In this document: positions 1,394 through 58,093 of the stretch, piece by piece
How the letters are laid out: every line of letters starts with the position of its first letter
Numbering within the stretch: position 1 is the stretch's first letter
Assembly (NCBI GenBank): GCA_021324435.1
Contig: JAJPIZ010000049.1
Location: 1-64,000, forward strand
Length of the DNA stretch: 64,000 nt
Origin: Anaerolineae bacterium
GTDB taxonomy: Bacteria > Chloroflexota > Anaerolineae > Anaerolineales > Villigracilaceae
Reading direction: 5' to 3'
Position numbers and translations under genes: made by a program
The notes under the pieces: generated by a model
Database searches by the model: none
Told to the model about the DNA's origin: nothing
The model's input: only the letters and a program-made list of their open reading frames with translations

Positions 1394-3058
1394 ATGACGG
1401 ATTTGATCCAGCAAATCACCAGTGATTTGCAAAAACAGATTGAGGGCTTTGAACCGCAGATCAGTATCAGCGATATTGGTACAGTGTTAGAGGCAGGTGA
1501 TGGAATTGCGCGCGTTCAGGGGCTGGCGAACGTGCAAGCGCAGGAACTGGTGCAATTTTCGAATGGCGTAATGGGAATCGCCTTCAACCTTGAAAAAGAC
1601 AGCGTGGGCGTGATCGTGATGGGCGATTACGCCGGCATCACCGAGGGCATGACCGTGCGCGGCACGGGCCGCATCGCATCTGTCCCGGTGGGGGACGCGA
1701 TGATCGGACGCGTGGTCAACGCTTTGGGCGAGCCGATTGACGGTAAAGGCCCGATTGCAACGACCGGCTTCCGCCCGATTGAACGCATTGCGCCGGGAGT
1801 GGTGCAACGCCAGGATGTAGATACGCCGGTTCAGACCGGCATCAAGTCAATTGACGCGATGATTCCCGTTGGCCGCGGCCAGCGGGAACTTATCATCGGC
1901 GACCGCCAGACCGGCAAGACGGCCATCGCGATTGATACGATCATCAATCAAAAAGGCAAAGACCTGGTCTGTATTTATGTGGCGATCGGTCAAAAGAAAG
2001 CCGCGGTTGCGCGTACGGTTGGCATTCTCGAGCGTTACGGCGCGATGGAACACACCATCATCGTCGTGGCCTCGGCGGACGAATCCGCGGCCCTGCAATA
2101 CATCGCTCCTTATTCCGGTTGCGCCATCGGCGAAGAATTCATGGAGACCGGACGCGACGCGCTTGTGATCTACGATGATCTTTCCAAACATGCCTGGGCG
2201 TATCGTCAGGTTTCTCTGCTCCTCCGCCGCCCGCCCGGACGTGAAGCGTATCCCGGTGATGTGTTTTATCTCCACTCGCGCCTGCTCGAGCGGGCCGCTC
2301 GTCTTGCCAACAAATACGTCATCGTCAAAAAAGATTTCAAAGACGCGTTGGCTTCTGAAGAAGATGGCGTGGACAAGAAAGTCTATGCAGGCCCGACATC
2401 CAAAGATGATGCCGAGCATGCGCGCAGGCAAATGAATAATGCCGATGATTATAAGTTGGTTAAGATCAAAGGCACAGGCGGCTCACTGACCGCGTTGCCG
2501 ATTATCGAGACTTTGCTCGGCGACGTTTCGGCTTACGTTCCTACGAACGTGATTTCAATTACCGATGGGCAGATTTATCTTGAGTCCAATTTGTTCAACG
2601 CCGGTATCCGCCCCGCAGTTAATGTAGGCATCTCGGTCTCGCGCGTAGGCGGTGATGCGCAGACCAAAGCCATGAAGCAAGTCGCGGGTCGTTTGCGCCT
2701 CGACATGGCCGCGTACCGTGAATTGGCGGCCTTTGCTCTAATGGCCTCCGATCTCGACAAAGCCACACAACAGCAATTGGGGCGCGGTCAACGAATGCAG
2801 GAAATCCTCAAACAGCCGCAATACGCGCCGATGTCACTGGCAGATCAGGTCATCGTGATCTTCGCGGGCACGAACGGGTATGCCGACCTCGTTCCTGTCG
2901 AAAAGATGGGGCAATGGCAGAACGAAATGCTCCGCTTTATGGAGTCTTCCTATCCCGAACTCGTCAAAGAAATCGCCGAGAAGAAAATCATCACAGACGA
3001 TACGCGCGATAAACTGACGATGGCGTTGAATACATTCCGCAACACGTGGAAGGTTTAA
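1394..3058 (+). CDS. atpA: F1-ATPase subunit alpha
   Basis: Non-catalytic nucleotide-binding subunit of the F1 head of ATP synthase, on the cytoplasmic side of the membrane. The start at 1394 has a GGAGG four bases upstream; an in-frame upstream start at 1358 would add 12 atypical residues and lacks such a site. Visible features are the N-terminal beta-barrel, the P-loop GDRQTGKT near residue 174, the segment [31 protein letters not shown], which is characteristic of alpha (quoted here as two parts: [17 protein letters not shown] and [14 protein letters not shown]), and [10 protein letters not shown]. At 554 residues it is longer than the usual 500-515. The excess is an extra segment of about 40 residues between RAARLANKY and [14 protein letters not shown] (roughly residues 307-350), rich in Lys, Asp and Ala. 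First gene of the run alpha-gamma-beta-epsilon; gamma starts 3 bases after its stop. Confidence 0.97.
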
Positions 3059-3061
3059 CCC

Positions 3062-5375
<2,314 letters not shown>

Positions 5376-23807: not shown

Positions 23808-23842
23808 AAACAAAAAATCCCGCCCAATAATGGACGGGATTT
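23808..23842 (-). terminator. Terminator of the cold-shock gene
   Basis: AAATCCCGTCCA and TGGGCGGGATTT pair with one mismatch around a 4-base loop. TTTTTTG follows on the minus strand. It lies 24 bases after the cspA-like stop codon. Confidence 0.88.
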
Positions 23843-23865
23843 CCTTGGTCTGTGGGAATGATGTC

Positions 23866-24075
23866 TTACAGAGGCATCACGTTTGCGGCCTGAGGGCCTT
23901 TCGGTCCCTGCTCGACCGTGAACTCCACCTTCTGGCCTTCCACGAGCTTGCGGAAACCGTCGCTCTGGATGGCCGAATAGTGGACGAACACGTCTGGGCC
24001 GCCGTCGCGGGAGATGAAGCCGTAGCCCTTCTCCGCATTGAACCACTTGACCGTTCCGACGATACGTTCGGACAT
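23866..24075 (-). CDS. Cold-shock domain protein
   Basis: Small single-stranded nucleic-acid-binding protein that acts as an RNA chaperone. The protein of 69 residues has the full cold-shock domain: [20 protein letters not shown] with RNP1 (KGYGFI) and [15 protein letters not shown] with RNP2 (VFVHY), then [20 protein letters not shown]. The start at 24075 is used because AAGGAGG lies 8 bases upstream; a longer frame to 24096 is not preceded by one. A leader of at least 100 bases contains a hairpin. Confidence 0.96.
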
Positions 24076-24146
24076 TGCTTTGCCTCCTTCTGGCAAAAAA
24101 GAAAAAATAGTGATGATGTCGCACGTCCTCGGACGGTCATAAACAA

Positions 24147-24176
24147 AATGACCCGCCGAAGTGCCCTCGGGTCATT
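24147..24176 (-). promoter_or_regulatory. Hairpin in the cold-shock gene leader
   Basis: AATGACCCG and CGGGTCATT pair perfectly around a 12-base loop, with TTTTG next on the minus strand. It lies about 70 bases before the cold-shock gene start. It could be a leader structure or the terminator of a short upstream transcript. The remaining bases between 24177 and 24320 hold only a short palindrome (AAGCAATTGCTT near 24230). Confidence 0.45.
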
Positions 24177-24320
24177 CCGTCCATATTCCTACGATAACGT
24201 ACTGGCATCTTGCAACACTGATGATACAAGCAATTGCTTAAACAGTCAAGGATTTAATCTGGCGCTAAGATTCGGAAATGAGATATTATTGGCTCGACTC
24301 CTTCACCTGGGACCTTTCAT

Positions 24321-53974: not shown

Positions 53975-55243
53975 CTATGGTCTAATGACATCCACTCCGC
54001 CCATCCACGGACGGAGCGCGTCGGGAACGACGATGGAACCGTCAGCCTGCTGGTAGTTTTCCATAACGGCGATCAGGGTCCGAGGGAGGCCCAGACCCGA
54101 TCCGTTGAGTGTGTGGACGAGTCGCGTTTTCTTGTCTGCGGCCCGATATTTGATGTTGGCGCGCCGCGCCTGAAAGTCGCGCACATTGGAGACCGAGGAA
54201 ACTTCCAGCCATTCGTTGCATCCCGGCGCCCAGACCTCGACATCGTATGTTGTGGTCGAGTTGAAGCCGATGTCGCCGGTGCAGAGTTGTTTGATGCGAT
54301 ACGTCAGGCCAAGTTGCCTGCAGGTCTCTTCGGCATGTTCGCGCATCTTCTCCAGCCATGCGTCTGAATCTTCCGGCTTGCAGTAAATGTACATCTCGAC
54401 CTTGTCGAACTGATGGCCGCGCTTGATGCCGCGCACATCGCGGCCCGCGCTCATTTTTTCTCGGCGGAAGCAGGGCGTATACGCGGTATAGAGGAGGGGC
54501 AGGCTGGCCTCGTCGAGGATTTCATCCATGTGCAGGCCGGTGAGCGGGACCTCCGCGGTGGGCACAAAGTAGTAATCTTCCTCGTGATCTTTGTAAAGAT
54601 TATCAGCGAACTTTGGAAGTTGACCCGCGCCATACACGGTTGCGGTCTTGACCATGAACGGCAGATACTTTTCGGTGTAACCCTGGCGAATGTGAAGATC
54701 GAGCATGAAGGCGATCAGAGCGCGTTGCAACCGCGCGCCCGCTCCGCTCAACACATAAAAACGCGAGCCGGTGAGTTTTGTGCCGCGCTCGAAGTCAATG
54801 ATGCCAAGCGCGGGGCCGAGATCCCAGTGCGCCTTTGGTTGAAAATCGAATTTCTTTGGCTCGCCCACCGTCTTCACGATAACATTATCATTTTCGTCTT
54901 TGCCAATCGGCGTGCCGGCATCCGGGACGTTGGGGATGCCCGATAAGACCGCGTTCAATTGCGCGTCCACTTCAGCGACTTCCTTATCCAGCGCGCTGAT
55001 CTTATCGCCGACGACGCGCATCGCTTCGATCTTTGCTGCTCGGGCGGCCGCGTCTTTCATTTGGCTGATCTCTTTCGAGACGGCGTTCCGCTCCGCTTTG
55101 AGTTTTTCGGCTTCCGTCAAGAGCGCGCGGCGCTTCTCGTCCAATTCCAAAACGGAATCCACCGGCGAGGAATCCATCTGCCGGTTCTTCAGCGCCGTGC
55201 GGACAACGTCCGGGGTCTGGCGGATGAGATTGATGTCAATCAT
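53975..55243 (-). CDS. serS: Seryl-tRNA synthetase
   Basis: Charges tRNA-Ser with serine. The N-terminal coiled-coil arm (about residues 30-105) contains [20 protein letters not shown] and VSKEISQMK. The class II core has motif 1 in the region of [60 protein letters not shown], motif 2 [20 protein letters not shown] with [12 protein letters not shown], and motif 3 [20 protein letters not shown]. The length of 422 residues is standard. GGAGGTG precedes the ATG. Expression is predicted to be controlled by the T-box leader just upstream. Confidence 0.98.
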
Positions 55244-55312: not shown

Positions 55313-55663
55313 AATAGAATACGCCCCCGGTCCATTTGCAGGACGAGCGTCGGAAGTTCATCCGACACCTTCGGGGGGCGTCTCGTGGTGCCACCTGCTT
55401 TTGCGACCCCCTCCCGGCTTCGCCACCCTCCCCCTTCAAGGGGGAGGGATGGGGTGGGGGTCACCTCAGACTTGCGCTGTAACGGGCGCTCGCGTCCCTC
55501 TTACAATCTTGTCGTAGTAGCGACTTCAACCGCTTTGTCACTACGTTTTAGATTCCTGCGAAGGAAACTTGGCGAAGTGGATTTCATCATTGGGCTGACC
55601 GCCTCGCACGACCGGCGGCTCTCTGAACAGTTACCTGATTACTTGTCTTCGCGCTGTCTGTTG
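55310..55663 (-). promoter_or_regulatory. T-box riboswitch (serine) upstream of serS
   Basis: tRNA-sensing leader that lets serS be transcribed when uncharged tRNA-Ser accumulates. On the minus strand the stem I base GCGAAG / CTTCGC is seen, with AGTA of the S-turn in GACAAGTAATCAGG. The conserved upper part runs AGAGAGCCGCCGGTCGTGCG then AGGCGG. The specifier is probably TCC (Ser), at 55579-55581 inside GAAATCCAC, followed by a purine as usual. The T-box core GGTGGCACC lies at 55387-55395; its TGGC would pair with the GCCA end of tRNA-Ser (discriminator G). The terminator stem ACGCCCCCCG / CGGGGGCGT (55381-55372 and 55329-55321) is followed by ATTCTATT. A palindromic repeat is inserted between stem I and the T-box core. 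Confidence 0.88.
55405..55462. repeat. G/C-rich palindromic repeat inside the T-box leader
   Basis: GACCCCC and GGGGGTC are the outer arms; CCCTCCCCCTT / AAGGGGGAGGG lie near the centre. It lies between stem I and the T-box core of the serS leader, where stems II/III would usually be. Confidence 0.75.
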
Positions 55664-55669
55664 CGGGTG

Positions 55670-55697
55670 ATTATATGCGGGTCACAAATTGTGTCAA
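55670..55697 (-). promoter_or_regulatory. Strong sigma-70 promoter of serS, inside the end of the upstream gene
   Basis: On the minus strand a perfect TTGACA (55697-55692) and a perfect TATAAT (55675-55670) are spaced by 16 bases. The -10 box includes the TAA stop codon of the Cys-rich protein gene. Transcription would start near 55663, just before T-box stem I. Confidence 0.8.
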
Positions 55698-56361
55698 GCA
55701 TGAAATATCGCTATCCTTTACCTGCCACCACGGGCCGGGATTATAGGTAAGAAAAAAGTCTTGGATTGACGGCGAAGTTACATCTGGCCTTATCGGGCAA
55801 CCTCCGCCGCACCCCGTTGAGCAGGTGTATCCGGGCGGACGGCCCTGACAGGAGAGATTTCTGCACCAATATTTTGGGAGACCGTTTTTATCGTAGCCGC
55901 ACTGGCCGCCCTCTAAATTTCCGTCGCAGTGTTTTTTTTTCACTATGCGGTTTCTGGCATTCCCAGACATAAGGCCCGTTGGGGCATGACAGCCCGCCGC
56001 CCTGGCGAATACACTCTCCTCCTCCGCAGGATTGGACTTCAAGATCGTATGGGTGGCCATTATTCGTGCATGTTCGTGTCTGGCAAAAATTAACGCAAGG
56101 GCCCCAATCCCCCCAGTCTTCTTTTTTGCACGTATTACCGACGGTCCATTTGCAGGTGCCACACTGCCGGATATTGGGTTTGTAACCATCACATGAAGCG
56201 GTGCAGCTTGGGTTTCCCTTGCAATAAGTTTTCTGACAATCATCGGTACTGGTACACTCTTTGTCGCCGTTACAACCCGGAAAATCTGCATGGGCTAGGT
56301 GATTGAAAGAAAGAACAAGGATTACACCGATGCCAATTCCAAAAAGAATCTTTGTTACCAT
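55671..56361 (-). CDS. Cys-rich secreted protein, frame broken at a run of nine A
   Basis: The first frame starts at 56361 with a signal peptide (MVTKILFGIGIGVILVLSFN, cleaved after AHA) and about 115 residues with many Cys (CNGDKECTSTDDCQKTYC, CGTCKWTVGNTC). At the A9 run (55932-55940) the frame changes: with eight A, PHSEKK would continue directly to HCDGNLEGGQCGYDKNGLPK, CRNLSCQGRPPGYTCSTGCG and onwards to the stop at 55671. The second frame is also Cys-rich and does not look like chance. So one protein of about 230 residues is expected, with the frame set by slippage, by mutation or by a sequencing error. I know no family. The last codons hold the serS promoter. Confidence 0.7.
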
Positions 56362-56434
56362 TCTTGTGTACTAAATTCATATTAAACCAAAGCCAACACG
56401 TTATGCAAGAGAATCAAAACCGATATTTTACAAT

Positions 56435-57481
56435 CTATGAGTGATCGTAGCGGGAGTATCCCAGAATGAAGTCTTCCAACTCTTCCGGCGGGATTTGGGT
56501 TTTTCCCCACTGCCTCACGTAATCTTCTGGTGAATGTTGTGCGTATACATCTTCCAGGTGCACCTCTTCGGGAAGATAACTACGATATTTGATTGCCCAA
56601 TCAGCGGTCGCCAGTATTGAAGGAAATGCCTCACGTGCACTTACCCTTGTTGGAGGATATGATATTTTATGTGTGTCCTTTTTGAATTCGTAAAACCAGA
56701 GATTAAAGAACCTGACGTTGCCCTTCTCTACAGAAATTGCATAAGTATAAATGCGGGCGTCTTTGCCTTCATTGAAAGGATTTTTAATTAGTCCAACGAA
56801 TGGAATATAAGGCGTCTGATCTTCTGACAAGTTGGGGATAGAGGTAGGTTTAAAGGGGTCTATTATTATCGCCCCGTCTGCCTCTTGGATTACTGGCACA
56901 AGCGGGGTGTCTTCGGGGAAATTATGGAGTACGCCATTGGCGTAGGCCAGGTGCAGGCTCAGAGAAAGTCTGCCGTTATAGACATCATCAAAAGTTATCG
57001 GAACCGGGTTTTCGTCATCGCCGCGAATTTCTAAGGGCGTTACCCACTCTCCGGTTTTGGGAAGGAAGAGATAATCGGTTTGAGAAGGGTTATCCGGGCT
57101 GGCAGCGGTCAGGATAAAGGACGAAAGGCCTTTGGGGTCAACGGTTCTAACCAGAGTTGGGTCAACTTCCTTTGCGCCGTATGCGGTTTGGATGACAATT
57201 TTTTCTCCGGCGGTGGTGAAAGCGGTCTCCTGCGCCCGGGTTTTGGGGTCGGCGTAGGTTAGTGTCCCTTTATCAAAAGTGTAGTCGGCGGAAAGGCCCG
57301 CGAGTTGGGCTGGCGTGATGATGACTTCGGGGGCGGGTGTGACGGTTTCGGTGGGGGTTGGAGTTTCAGTGGGGGTGGCGGTTGAAGGCTGGGTGACGGT
57401 CGGTCCATTTGGCTTGCCGTTGGGGGTTCCACACGCGCCCGCCACAATGGCGATCAAGAGTAATGCGATGATTCTTCTCAT
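56435..57481 (-). CDS. Lipoprotein with Thr/Pro linker, unknown domain
   Basis: The signal MRRIIALLLIAIVAGACGTP has a lipobox with Cys at residue 17, followed by a Thr/Pro/Glu linker (TATPTETPTPTETVTP). The main domain of about 290 residues is rich in beta strands and aromatics (LAGLSADYTFDKGTLTYADP; KGNVRFFNLWFYEFKKD) and is not recognised. It starts 3 bases after the sugar transferase gene, so they share a transcript; it could be part of an exopolysaccharide pathway. Its A/T content is above that of the neighbours. Confidence 0.8.
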   Translation of the reverse strand: MRRIIALLLIAIVAGACGTPNGKPNGPTVTQPSTATPTETPTPTETVTPAPEVIITPAQLAGLSADYTFDKGTLTYADPKTRAQETAFTTAGEKIVIQTAYGAKEVDPTLVRTVDPKGLSSFILTAASPDNPSQTDYLFLPKTGEWVTPLEIRGDDENPVPITFDDVYNGRLSLSLHLAYANGVLHNFPEDTPLVPVIQEADGAIIIDPFKPTSIPNLSEDQTPYIPFVGLIKNPFNEGKDARIYTYAISVEKGNVRFFNLWFYEFKKDTHKISYPPTRVSAREAFPSILATADWAIKYRSYLPEEVHLEDVYAQHSPEDYVRQWGKTQIPPEELEDFILGYSRYDHS

Positions 57482-57484
57482 GGC

Positions 57485-58093
57485 TCACTTCCTTTCTTCA
57501 TTTCCCATGAAGTATTTCGTCGTGGCCTGCCCCGGCTGGTTGATGCCTTCGCGGGTGATGACCTTCCAAAGACTCAGGAATAATATTTTTATATCCAGCC
57601 AGAACGACCAGTGATCCACATACCAAACGTCGAGCGCAAAACGAGTCGGCCAGTCAATCGCGTTGCGGCCATTGACCTGCGCCCAGCCTGTGAGACCGGG
57701 ATGCACGTCATGGCGGCGCATTTGTTCGGGAGAATAGCGCGGCAGATATTCCATCAATAAAGGCCGCGGGCCGACCAGGCTCATGTCGCCGCGCAGGATG
57801 TTGAACAATTCCGGGAGTTCATCGAGACTCAAAGAGCGCAGAAATTTCCCGAAGCGGGTGAGGCGCGCCGAGTCGGGGAGCAGATCCCCGTCCGCGTCGC
57901 GGGCATCGGTCATTGTGCGGAATTTGTAAACGGTGAAAGGCTGACCCTTGTAACCCGGTCTCGTTTGACGGAATAAGATCGGCGTCCCGAAAAAGATGCG
58001 GACGAGAATCGCGATCAGAAACATGAACGGGGATAAGATCAGGAGTCCGAGTGACGCGGCAATGATGTCGAAGATGCGCTTGCTGAGGGGCAT
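57485..58093 (-). CDS. Polyprenyl-phosphate sugar-1-phosphate transferase (WcaJ/exopolysaccharide type)
   Basis: Initiating transferase that loads a sugar phosphate onto undecaprenyl phosphate for exopolysaccharide or glycan synthesis. An N-terminal re-entrant hydrophobic segment [20 protein letters not shown] is followed by [40 protein letters not shown] with PRP next, and [13 protein letters not shown] with the later [17 protein letters not shown]. The 202 residues are the catalytic-only form. The sugar is unknown. Confidence 0.93.

Follow-up and report, generated by a model that had tools for sequence, protein, structure and literature searches.

The minus-strand locus at 55671–56361 of the window, the 64,000-nucleotide stretch of an Anaerolineae genome analyzed here, is probably a decaying, 3′-truncated copy of a secreted cysteine-rich gene with a frameshift in a run of nine A. 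In the assembly, what is left of the frame is thrown out of register by one surplus base in the A run. The copy has also lost its 3′ part: the WxQ domain and the DUF7305-like part of its relatives are gone, and the frame ends inside the promoter of serS. The gene belongs to a secreted cysteine-rich family that has no full-length Pfam or NCBIfam match.

Two cysteine-rich frames on either side of an A9 run

The run reads T9 on the plus strand and A9 on the coding strand (55932–55940). Two minus-strand frames, 55888–56361 (157 aa) and 55671–56291 (206 aa), overlap across it, and the frame changes there by +1, the run being one base too long for a continuous frame. The split thus falls precisely where the original prediction had placed it. 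The 5′ frame (55941–56361, minus strand) opens with an ATG and a start that by eye resembles a signal peptide, followed by a cysteine-rich segment, and contains 16 Cys in the 140 codons up to the run. The 3′ frame (55671–55931, minus strand) is also cysteine-rich, with 8 Cys in 87 codons, in keeping with the predicted likeness of the two sides; it contains an EGGxCGYxxxGxPKYWC-like motif and then approximately the first ten residues of the WxQ domain (WWQVKDSDIS). With one A fewer, the eight A of the prediction, or with two A more, the coordinates give one continuous protein of 229 aa.

Each side of the run has a single stop-free frame, and that frame differs between the sides. Upstream, the ATG frame has no stops, as against 3 and 8 stops (with 1 and 4 Cys) in the other two frames; downstream, the shifted frame has its final stop alone, as against 3 and 6 stops (2 and 0 Cys). 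Among 20,000 first-order Markov sequences generated for each part, a fraction of 0.0002 had at least 16 Cys (5′ part) and a fraction of 0.0029 at least 8 Cys (3′ part). Codon-usage log-odds were negative in every frame, as for an atypical gene, and least so in the proposed frames (−6.9 versus −10.3 and −32.4 on the 5′ side; −8.8 versus −11.6 and −19.6 on the 3′ side); codon usage therefore supports the frames weakly. Because neither half contains a stop beyond the frame break itself, the decay would be recent, or something would have kept the frames open.

Judged by its homologues, the frame after the run is genuine coding sequence. In a search of 150 relatives its translation matched G060 (E = 2.2e-8), contig C16 of its own genome (1.3e-5) and G482 (3.1e-5), and it matched a contig of Pelolinea, a member of the Anaerolineaceae, over 13 residues. 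When 19 family sequences were compared with one another, it matched seven others, with E-values flattered by the small database. At E 0.1 there were matches in 40 of the 150 genomes; eight regions were retrieved, and those from C16, G060 and G482 were kept. Four weakly matching regions (L065–L068) were dropped because their open reading frames (ORFs) were unrelated, a match in G056 (L081) was dismissed as chance on sight of its ORFs, and one in G283 (L131; E = 3.5e-4) was set aside because its ORFs were of another kind. No match was found in viral contigs.

The frame before the run rests on its signal-peptide-like start, its cysteine content and its absence of stops. Its translation matched nothing else in its own genome, nor anything in 60 relatives, plasmid records, solved structures or viral contigs; none of 19 pattern matches in genome contigs was confirmed, and three matches among 396 genomes of the class (E = 0.004–0.009) were taken for chance without inspection. 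The 19-sequence family comparison gave no convincing homologue. That no homologue backs this frame counts against reading the locus as a relic, and the frames of the homologues are open, yet none of them aligns on both sides of the run. Scans of the window pieces against Pfam and NCBIfam returned nothing above chance, and the pieces did not match the DUF7305 model (PF23981). The earlier statement that no family is recognized thus holds for these databases and fails more generally, as relatives do exist.

Since both frames are otherwise free of stops, a consensus error was weighed, in which the run would really be A8 and the truncated stub one uninterrupted open frame of 229 aa. Homopolymers are the commonest site of indel errors. 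Against this, contig ends C13, C43 and C14 carry an identical 107-base repeat and C24 carries 106 bases of it (the repeat itself contains an A9 run); contigs broken at a repeat some 100 bases long suggest short reads, in which indels in nine-base homopolymers would be rare. The other window homopolymers of at least eight bases do not visibly break their host ORFs, although few lie in genes. An assembly error therefore seems to us quite unlikely.

A 3′ end inside the serS promoter and the origin of the gene pair

Homology of the window copy stops at WWQVKDSDI, after roughly the first ten residues of the WxQ domain, the copy aligning to positions 1–20 of the 265-position model at E = 0.038. The Pelolinea protein continues beyond this point, where the window DNA turns into the serS promoter. 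The promoter-like site (55670–55697, minus strand) consists of TTGACA (55692–55697), a 16-base spacer and TATAAT (55670–55675) and overlaps the 3′ frame over its final eight codons and stop (TTG ACA ... ATA TAA). TATAAT is present in all seven relatives aligned at the serS site; TTGACA at the 16-base spacing is present in four of the seven and TTGACT in one, and no such element is evident in two (G006 and G008). Because the promoter elements are conserved in relatives, this terminal stretch of eight codons and a stop most likely belongs to the serS promoter. We accordingly rejected the idea of a full-length protein with a short C-terminus, as its C-terminal codons are the conserved promoter. 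The proposal that the A9 run switches a working surface protein meets its first difficulty here, since the read-through product would be a stub ending in the serS promoter.

Downstream of the promoter, a T-box-like leader of serS (55369–55658, minus strand) matches RF00230 with 48.7 bits and E = 2.4e-9; the gathering score is 93, and the Rfam scan at the gathering threshold missed it. By eye, the serS leaders of relatives have its motifs too, and the window leader has an extra inverted repeat at approximately 55403–55461. Elsewhere in the window, positions 23812–24185 (minus strand) match the cspA thermoregulator (RF01766) with 90.1 bits, above its gathering score of 78. A cspA thermoregulator is unexpected outside enterobacteria.

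The native neighbors are serS itself, encoding seryl-tRNA synthetase (53975–55243, minus strand), downstream, and a bacterial sugar transferase (Bac_transf; 57485–58093, minus strand) upstream. Between them, 73 bases upstream of the cysteine-rich gene, lies a Pro/Thr-rich lipoprotein-like gene of 348 aa (56435–57481, minus strand; lipobox by eye), and the sugar transferase stop lies 3 bases ahead of its ATG. In four of eight relatives (G002, G004, G006 and G008) the sugar transferase sits next to serS, with neither the lipoprotein nor the cysteine-rich gene at this site, G002 and G004 being of the same genus; in the remaining four it was not found beside serS. No relative searched carries the window copy itself, and GC content dips to 0.42–0.46 over 56000–57000 against about 0.55–0.59 around it. 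We infer that the gene pair was gained in the lineage of the window, loss elsewhere being possible. In the history that we propose, a secreted cysteine-rich gene with its lipoprotein partner would have come to lie between the sugar transferase and serS, and the frameshift would probably have arisen by replication slippage in the A run, with no selection to reverse it.

Truncation across a secreted cysteine-rich family

The family, defined in the present analysis as the WxQ/DUF7305-like secreted cysteine-rich family, comprises secreted cysteine-rich proteins usually encoded downstream of a Pro/Thr-rich lipoprotein gene and having a WxQ domain and a C-terminus that weakly resembles DUF7305. The window copy has the signal peptide (by eye) followed by a cysteine-rich segment, homology around PGPWWQVKDSDI (the Pelolinea member reading ...PGPWWQVKDSDIFSQGNITSLIP...) and a lipoprotein-like gene directly upstream; it lacks a complete WxQ domain and the C-terminal domain. 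The full architecture is seen in L079, a 500-aa protein from the same-genus genome G004, with a signal peptide, a cysteine-rich part, a linker, the WxQ domain and repeats of the type IVILVNGNLTI...GGFIAFIVHGNITV, its C-terminal end being FTYDPELLFTMPQ. Pfam and NCBIfam gave no name for the longer members scanned, the hits being weak ones to fn3, Big_7 and the like. Four of the seven sequences scanned from the C-terminal alignment matched DUF7305 (best E = 2.4e-6) in a segment that the window copy is altogether without, and full-length L079 had no DUF7305 match at E 1. A literature search on the family found nothing, and DUF7305 went unmentioned in it.

A search of 301 genomes of the order with the WxQ alignment returned 18 places, spread over 14 genomes; together with L061, L062 (the contig C16 copy) and the window these make 21 loci; L101 and L102 carry an identical protein, leaving 20 distinct loci. 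Within the window's own genome, neither the WxQ domain (E 0.001) nor the C-terminal domain (E 0.01) was found. Sixteen of the 21 loci have a lipoprotein-like ORF upstream; of the five others, L078, L108 and L111 are cut by contig ends, and L080 and L110 have none by a simple pattern. In the 19-sequence comparison the lipoproteins are alike mainly in their signal and Pro/Thr-rich part, so that the case for kinship is weak. Some loci are organized differently. At L103 (1171–5719) a lipoprotein gene, a cysteine-rich WxQ gene and, 12 bases past the WxQ stop, a second near-identical lipoprotein gene stand in tandem; at L062 (3462–4013) and L064 (4755–5378) the lipoprotein and cysteine-rich genes are separated by a third ORF of about 180–210 aa whose start resembles a membrane anchor, and gaps of 560–720 bases at L103, L104 and L107 suggest a third ORF there too.

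The C-terminal end of the family is reached in L079 and L110 alone, the latter without its 5′ part, and is absent in 19 of the 21 loci. For L080 and L103, truncation was judged by eye, both being part of the model and aligning with unrelated tails; several further loci are likewise part of the model. The truncation points vary between copies. In 11 of the 19 truncated loci the stop lies at most 30 bases from, or overlaps, the next ORF (at least 130 aa), a count based on ORFs and not on genes; full-length L079 also ends against its neighbor, so abutment on a following gene does not on its own indicate truncation. We rejected the possibility that the remainder of the domain had merely shifted to another frame downstream, as no further piece was found in the 21 loci; the exceptions are weak hits on the L103 lipoproteins (E = 0.0003 and 0.0016), in a region of the model that derives from the non-family tail of L103 itself.

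Upstream of these losses, the N-terminal frame is unbroken in 15 of the 18 loci that have a 5′ part, and this is why a truncated product may be functional. The lipoprotein and the cysteine-rich N-terminal domain would then form a working unit with a dispensable C-terminal domain, the A9 run being a harmless or recent lesion, and the open frames in a family with 19 of 21 C-termini missing, as well as the lipoprotein-like ORF preceding 16 of 21, fit that picture. Three of the 18 frames are nevertheless broken (the window, C16 and, by an in-frame stop, L106), and the truncation points are not the same in every copy; we regard this explanation as improbable. A further, speculative possibility is that the family consists of dispersed surface-protein modules, each a lipoprotein with a variable cysteine-rich N-terminus, whose copies are mostly cut inside the shared C-terminal domain as reserve orphan tips, mirroring the orphan C-terminal tips of polymorphic toxins. 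Recombination within the stub of the shared domain could then join a tip to a full-length gene, and stored copies would be silenced by simple-sequence tracts close to the linker. We hold this to be improbable as well. A silent-cassette system within the window's own genome was rejected, as the WxQ and C-terminal searches found no full-length partner there.

The contig C16 copy, the sole other copy found in the window's own genome, is frame-split too. A 115-aa signal-peptide frame (L062, 3118–3465) and a 277-aa frame (2406–3239) meet in (GGGGGC)n and G7 tracts with, counted by hand, one base too many. The EGGxCGYxxxGxPKYWC-like motif follows a few residues after the break, and the frame closes with NPGPWWQVYS in a six-base overlap with the end of a convergent gene. 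Its N-terminal part resembles that of L080, whose linker is poly-Gly.

Possible slippage at the A9 run

Exact A9 runs number 15 on both strands of the 3.11-Mb assembly. Within coding regions, one lies in a short transposase-like ORF (L120, contig C22 near 80238) with an HTH_23 match, which we take to be IS1-like, and another lies near the end of an ORF in L117. A chlD-like gene (L129, 415–2477, contig C47) is split at GAAAAAAAAAC, an A9 run, between an AAA/Mg-chelatase frame and a VWA frame; recoding of chlD in Anaerolineaceae is described in PMC9227772, and the frame change here is in the minus-one direction.

These observations bear on the possibility, raised at the outset, that the window run is kept to switch or meter a secreted protein by phase variation or programmed transcript slippage, the stub being a real product. 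Such runs are uncommon in the genome, those in coding sequence include the split chlD-like gene and the transposase-like ORF, and both genome copies of the family have one base too many near the junction before EGGxCGY. Nine A is, moreover, a length at which slippage in bacteria is commonly considered, as had been supposed: PMC1088944 gives it as the length at which many bacteria show selection against slippage, and describes genes changed from 8 A to 9 A that still yield product. The run sits at the frame junction, as expected of a pseudogene rescued by transcript slippage.

Other features argue against a switch. The tract is not conserved in homologues, as that of a phase-variable gene would be; no A run of seven or more was found among the 16 other family gene regions listed, most N-terminal frames of the family (15 of 18) are intact, and the second genome copy loses its frame in another kind of tract, G-rich and with G7. 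The direction is also unfavorable. According to PMC5574713, single insertions are the main event of transcript slippage in A/T runs, homopolymer deletions are rare in E. coli and G/C runs gave no insertions; joining the frames of the window gene takes the loss of one A or the gain of two, the less common products, and slippage would probably be inefficient. In the chlD-like gene the shift runs the other way, by minus one. RNA polymerase slippage on the A9 run might still join the frames in a minority of transcripts, but what it restored could at most be a secreted stub of 229 residues. On balance we consider a maintained switch unlikely and prefer a decaying, truncated copy.

Described systems offer partial parallels. 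The 'pseudo-pseudogenes' with a nine-A run (Baranov et al. 2005, PMC1088944) resemble the window gene in that slippage at A9 could restore part of the product; in that study intact orthologues prove the lesion, whereas the window gene is without an orthologue and also 3′-truncated. The homopolymer frameshifts of Blochmannia (PMC3017870) are likewise single poly-A indels in otherwise in-frame genes with possible rescue by slippage, but they occur in an AT-rich endosymbiont with 153 coding tracts of at least nine bases in B. vafer, as against the higher GC and 15 exact A9 runs here. The fs-chlD genes (PMC9227772) share the motif GAAAAAAAAAC with the split chlD-like gene of the window's own genome and are conserved, shifted by minus one and of a known family; the window gene would need a frame change of plus one and is unconserved.

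A split at A9 in a gene resembling that of a surface protein therefore need not mean a switch, as the window copy is also without its 3′ end. The analysis brings out a secreted family of Anaerolineae-type genomes that has no clear Pfam name, is usually paired with a lipoprotein and has mostly lost its C-terminal domain. The frequent 3′ loss beside open N-terminal frames poses a testable question for this family.
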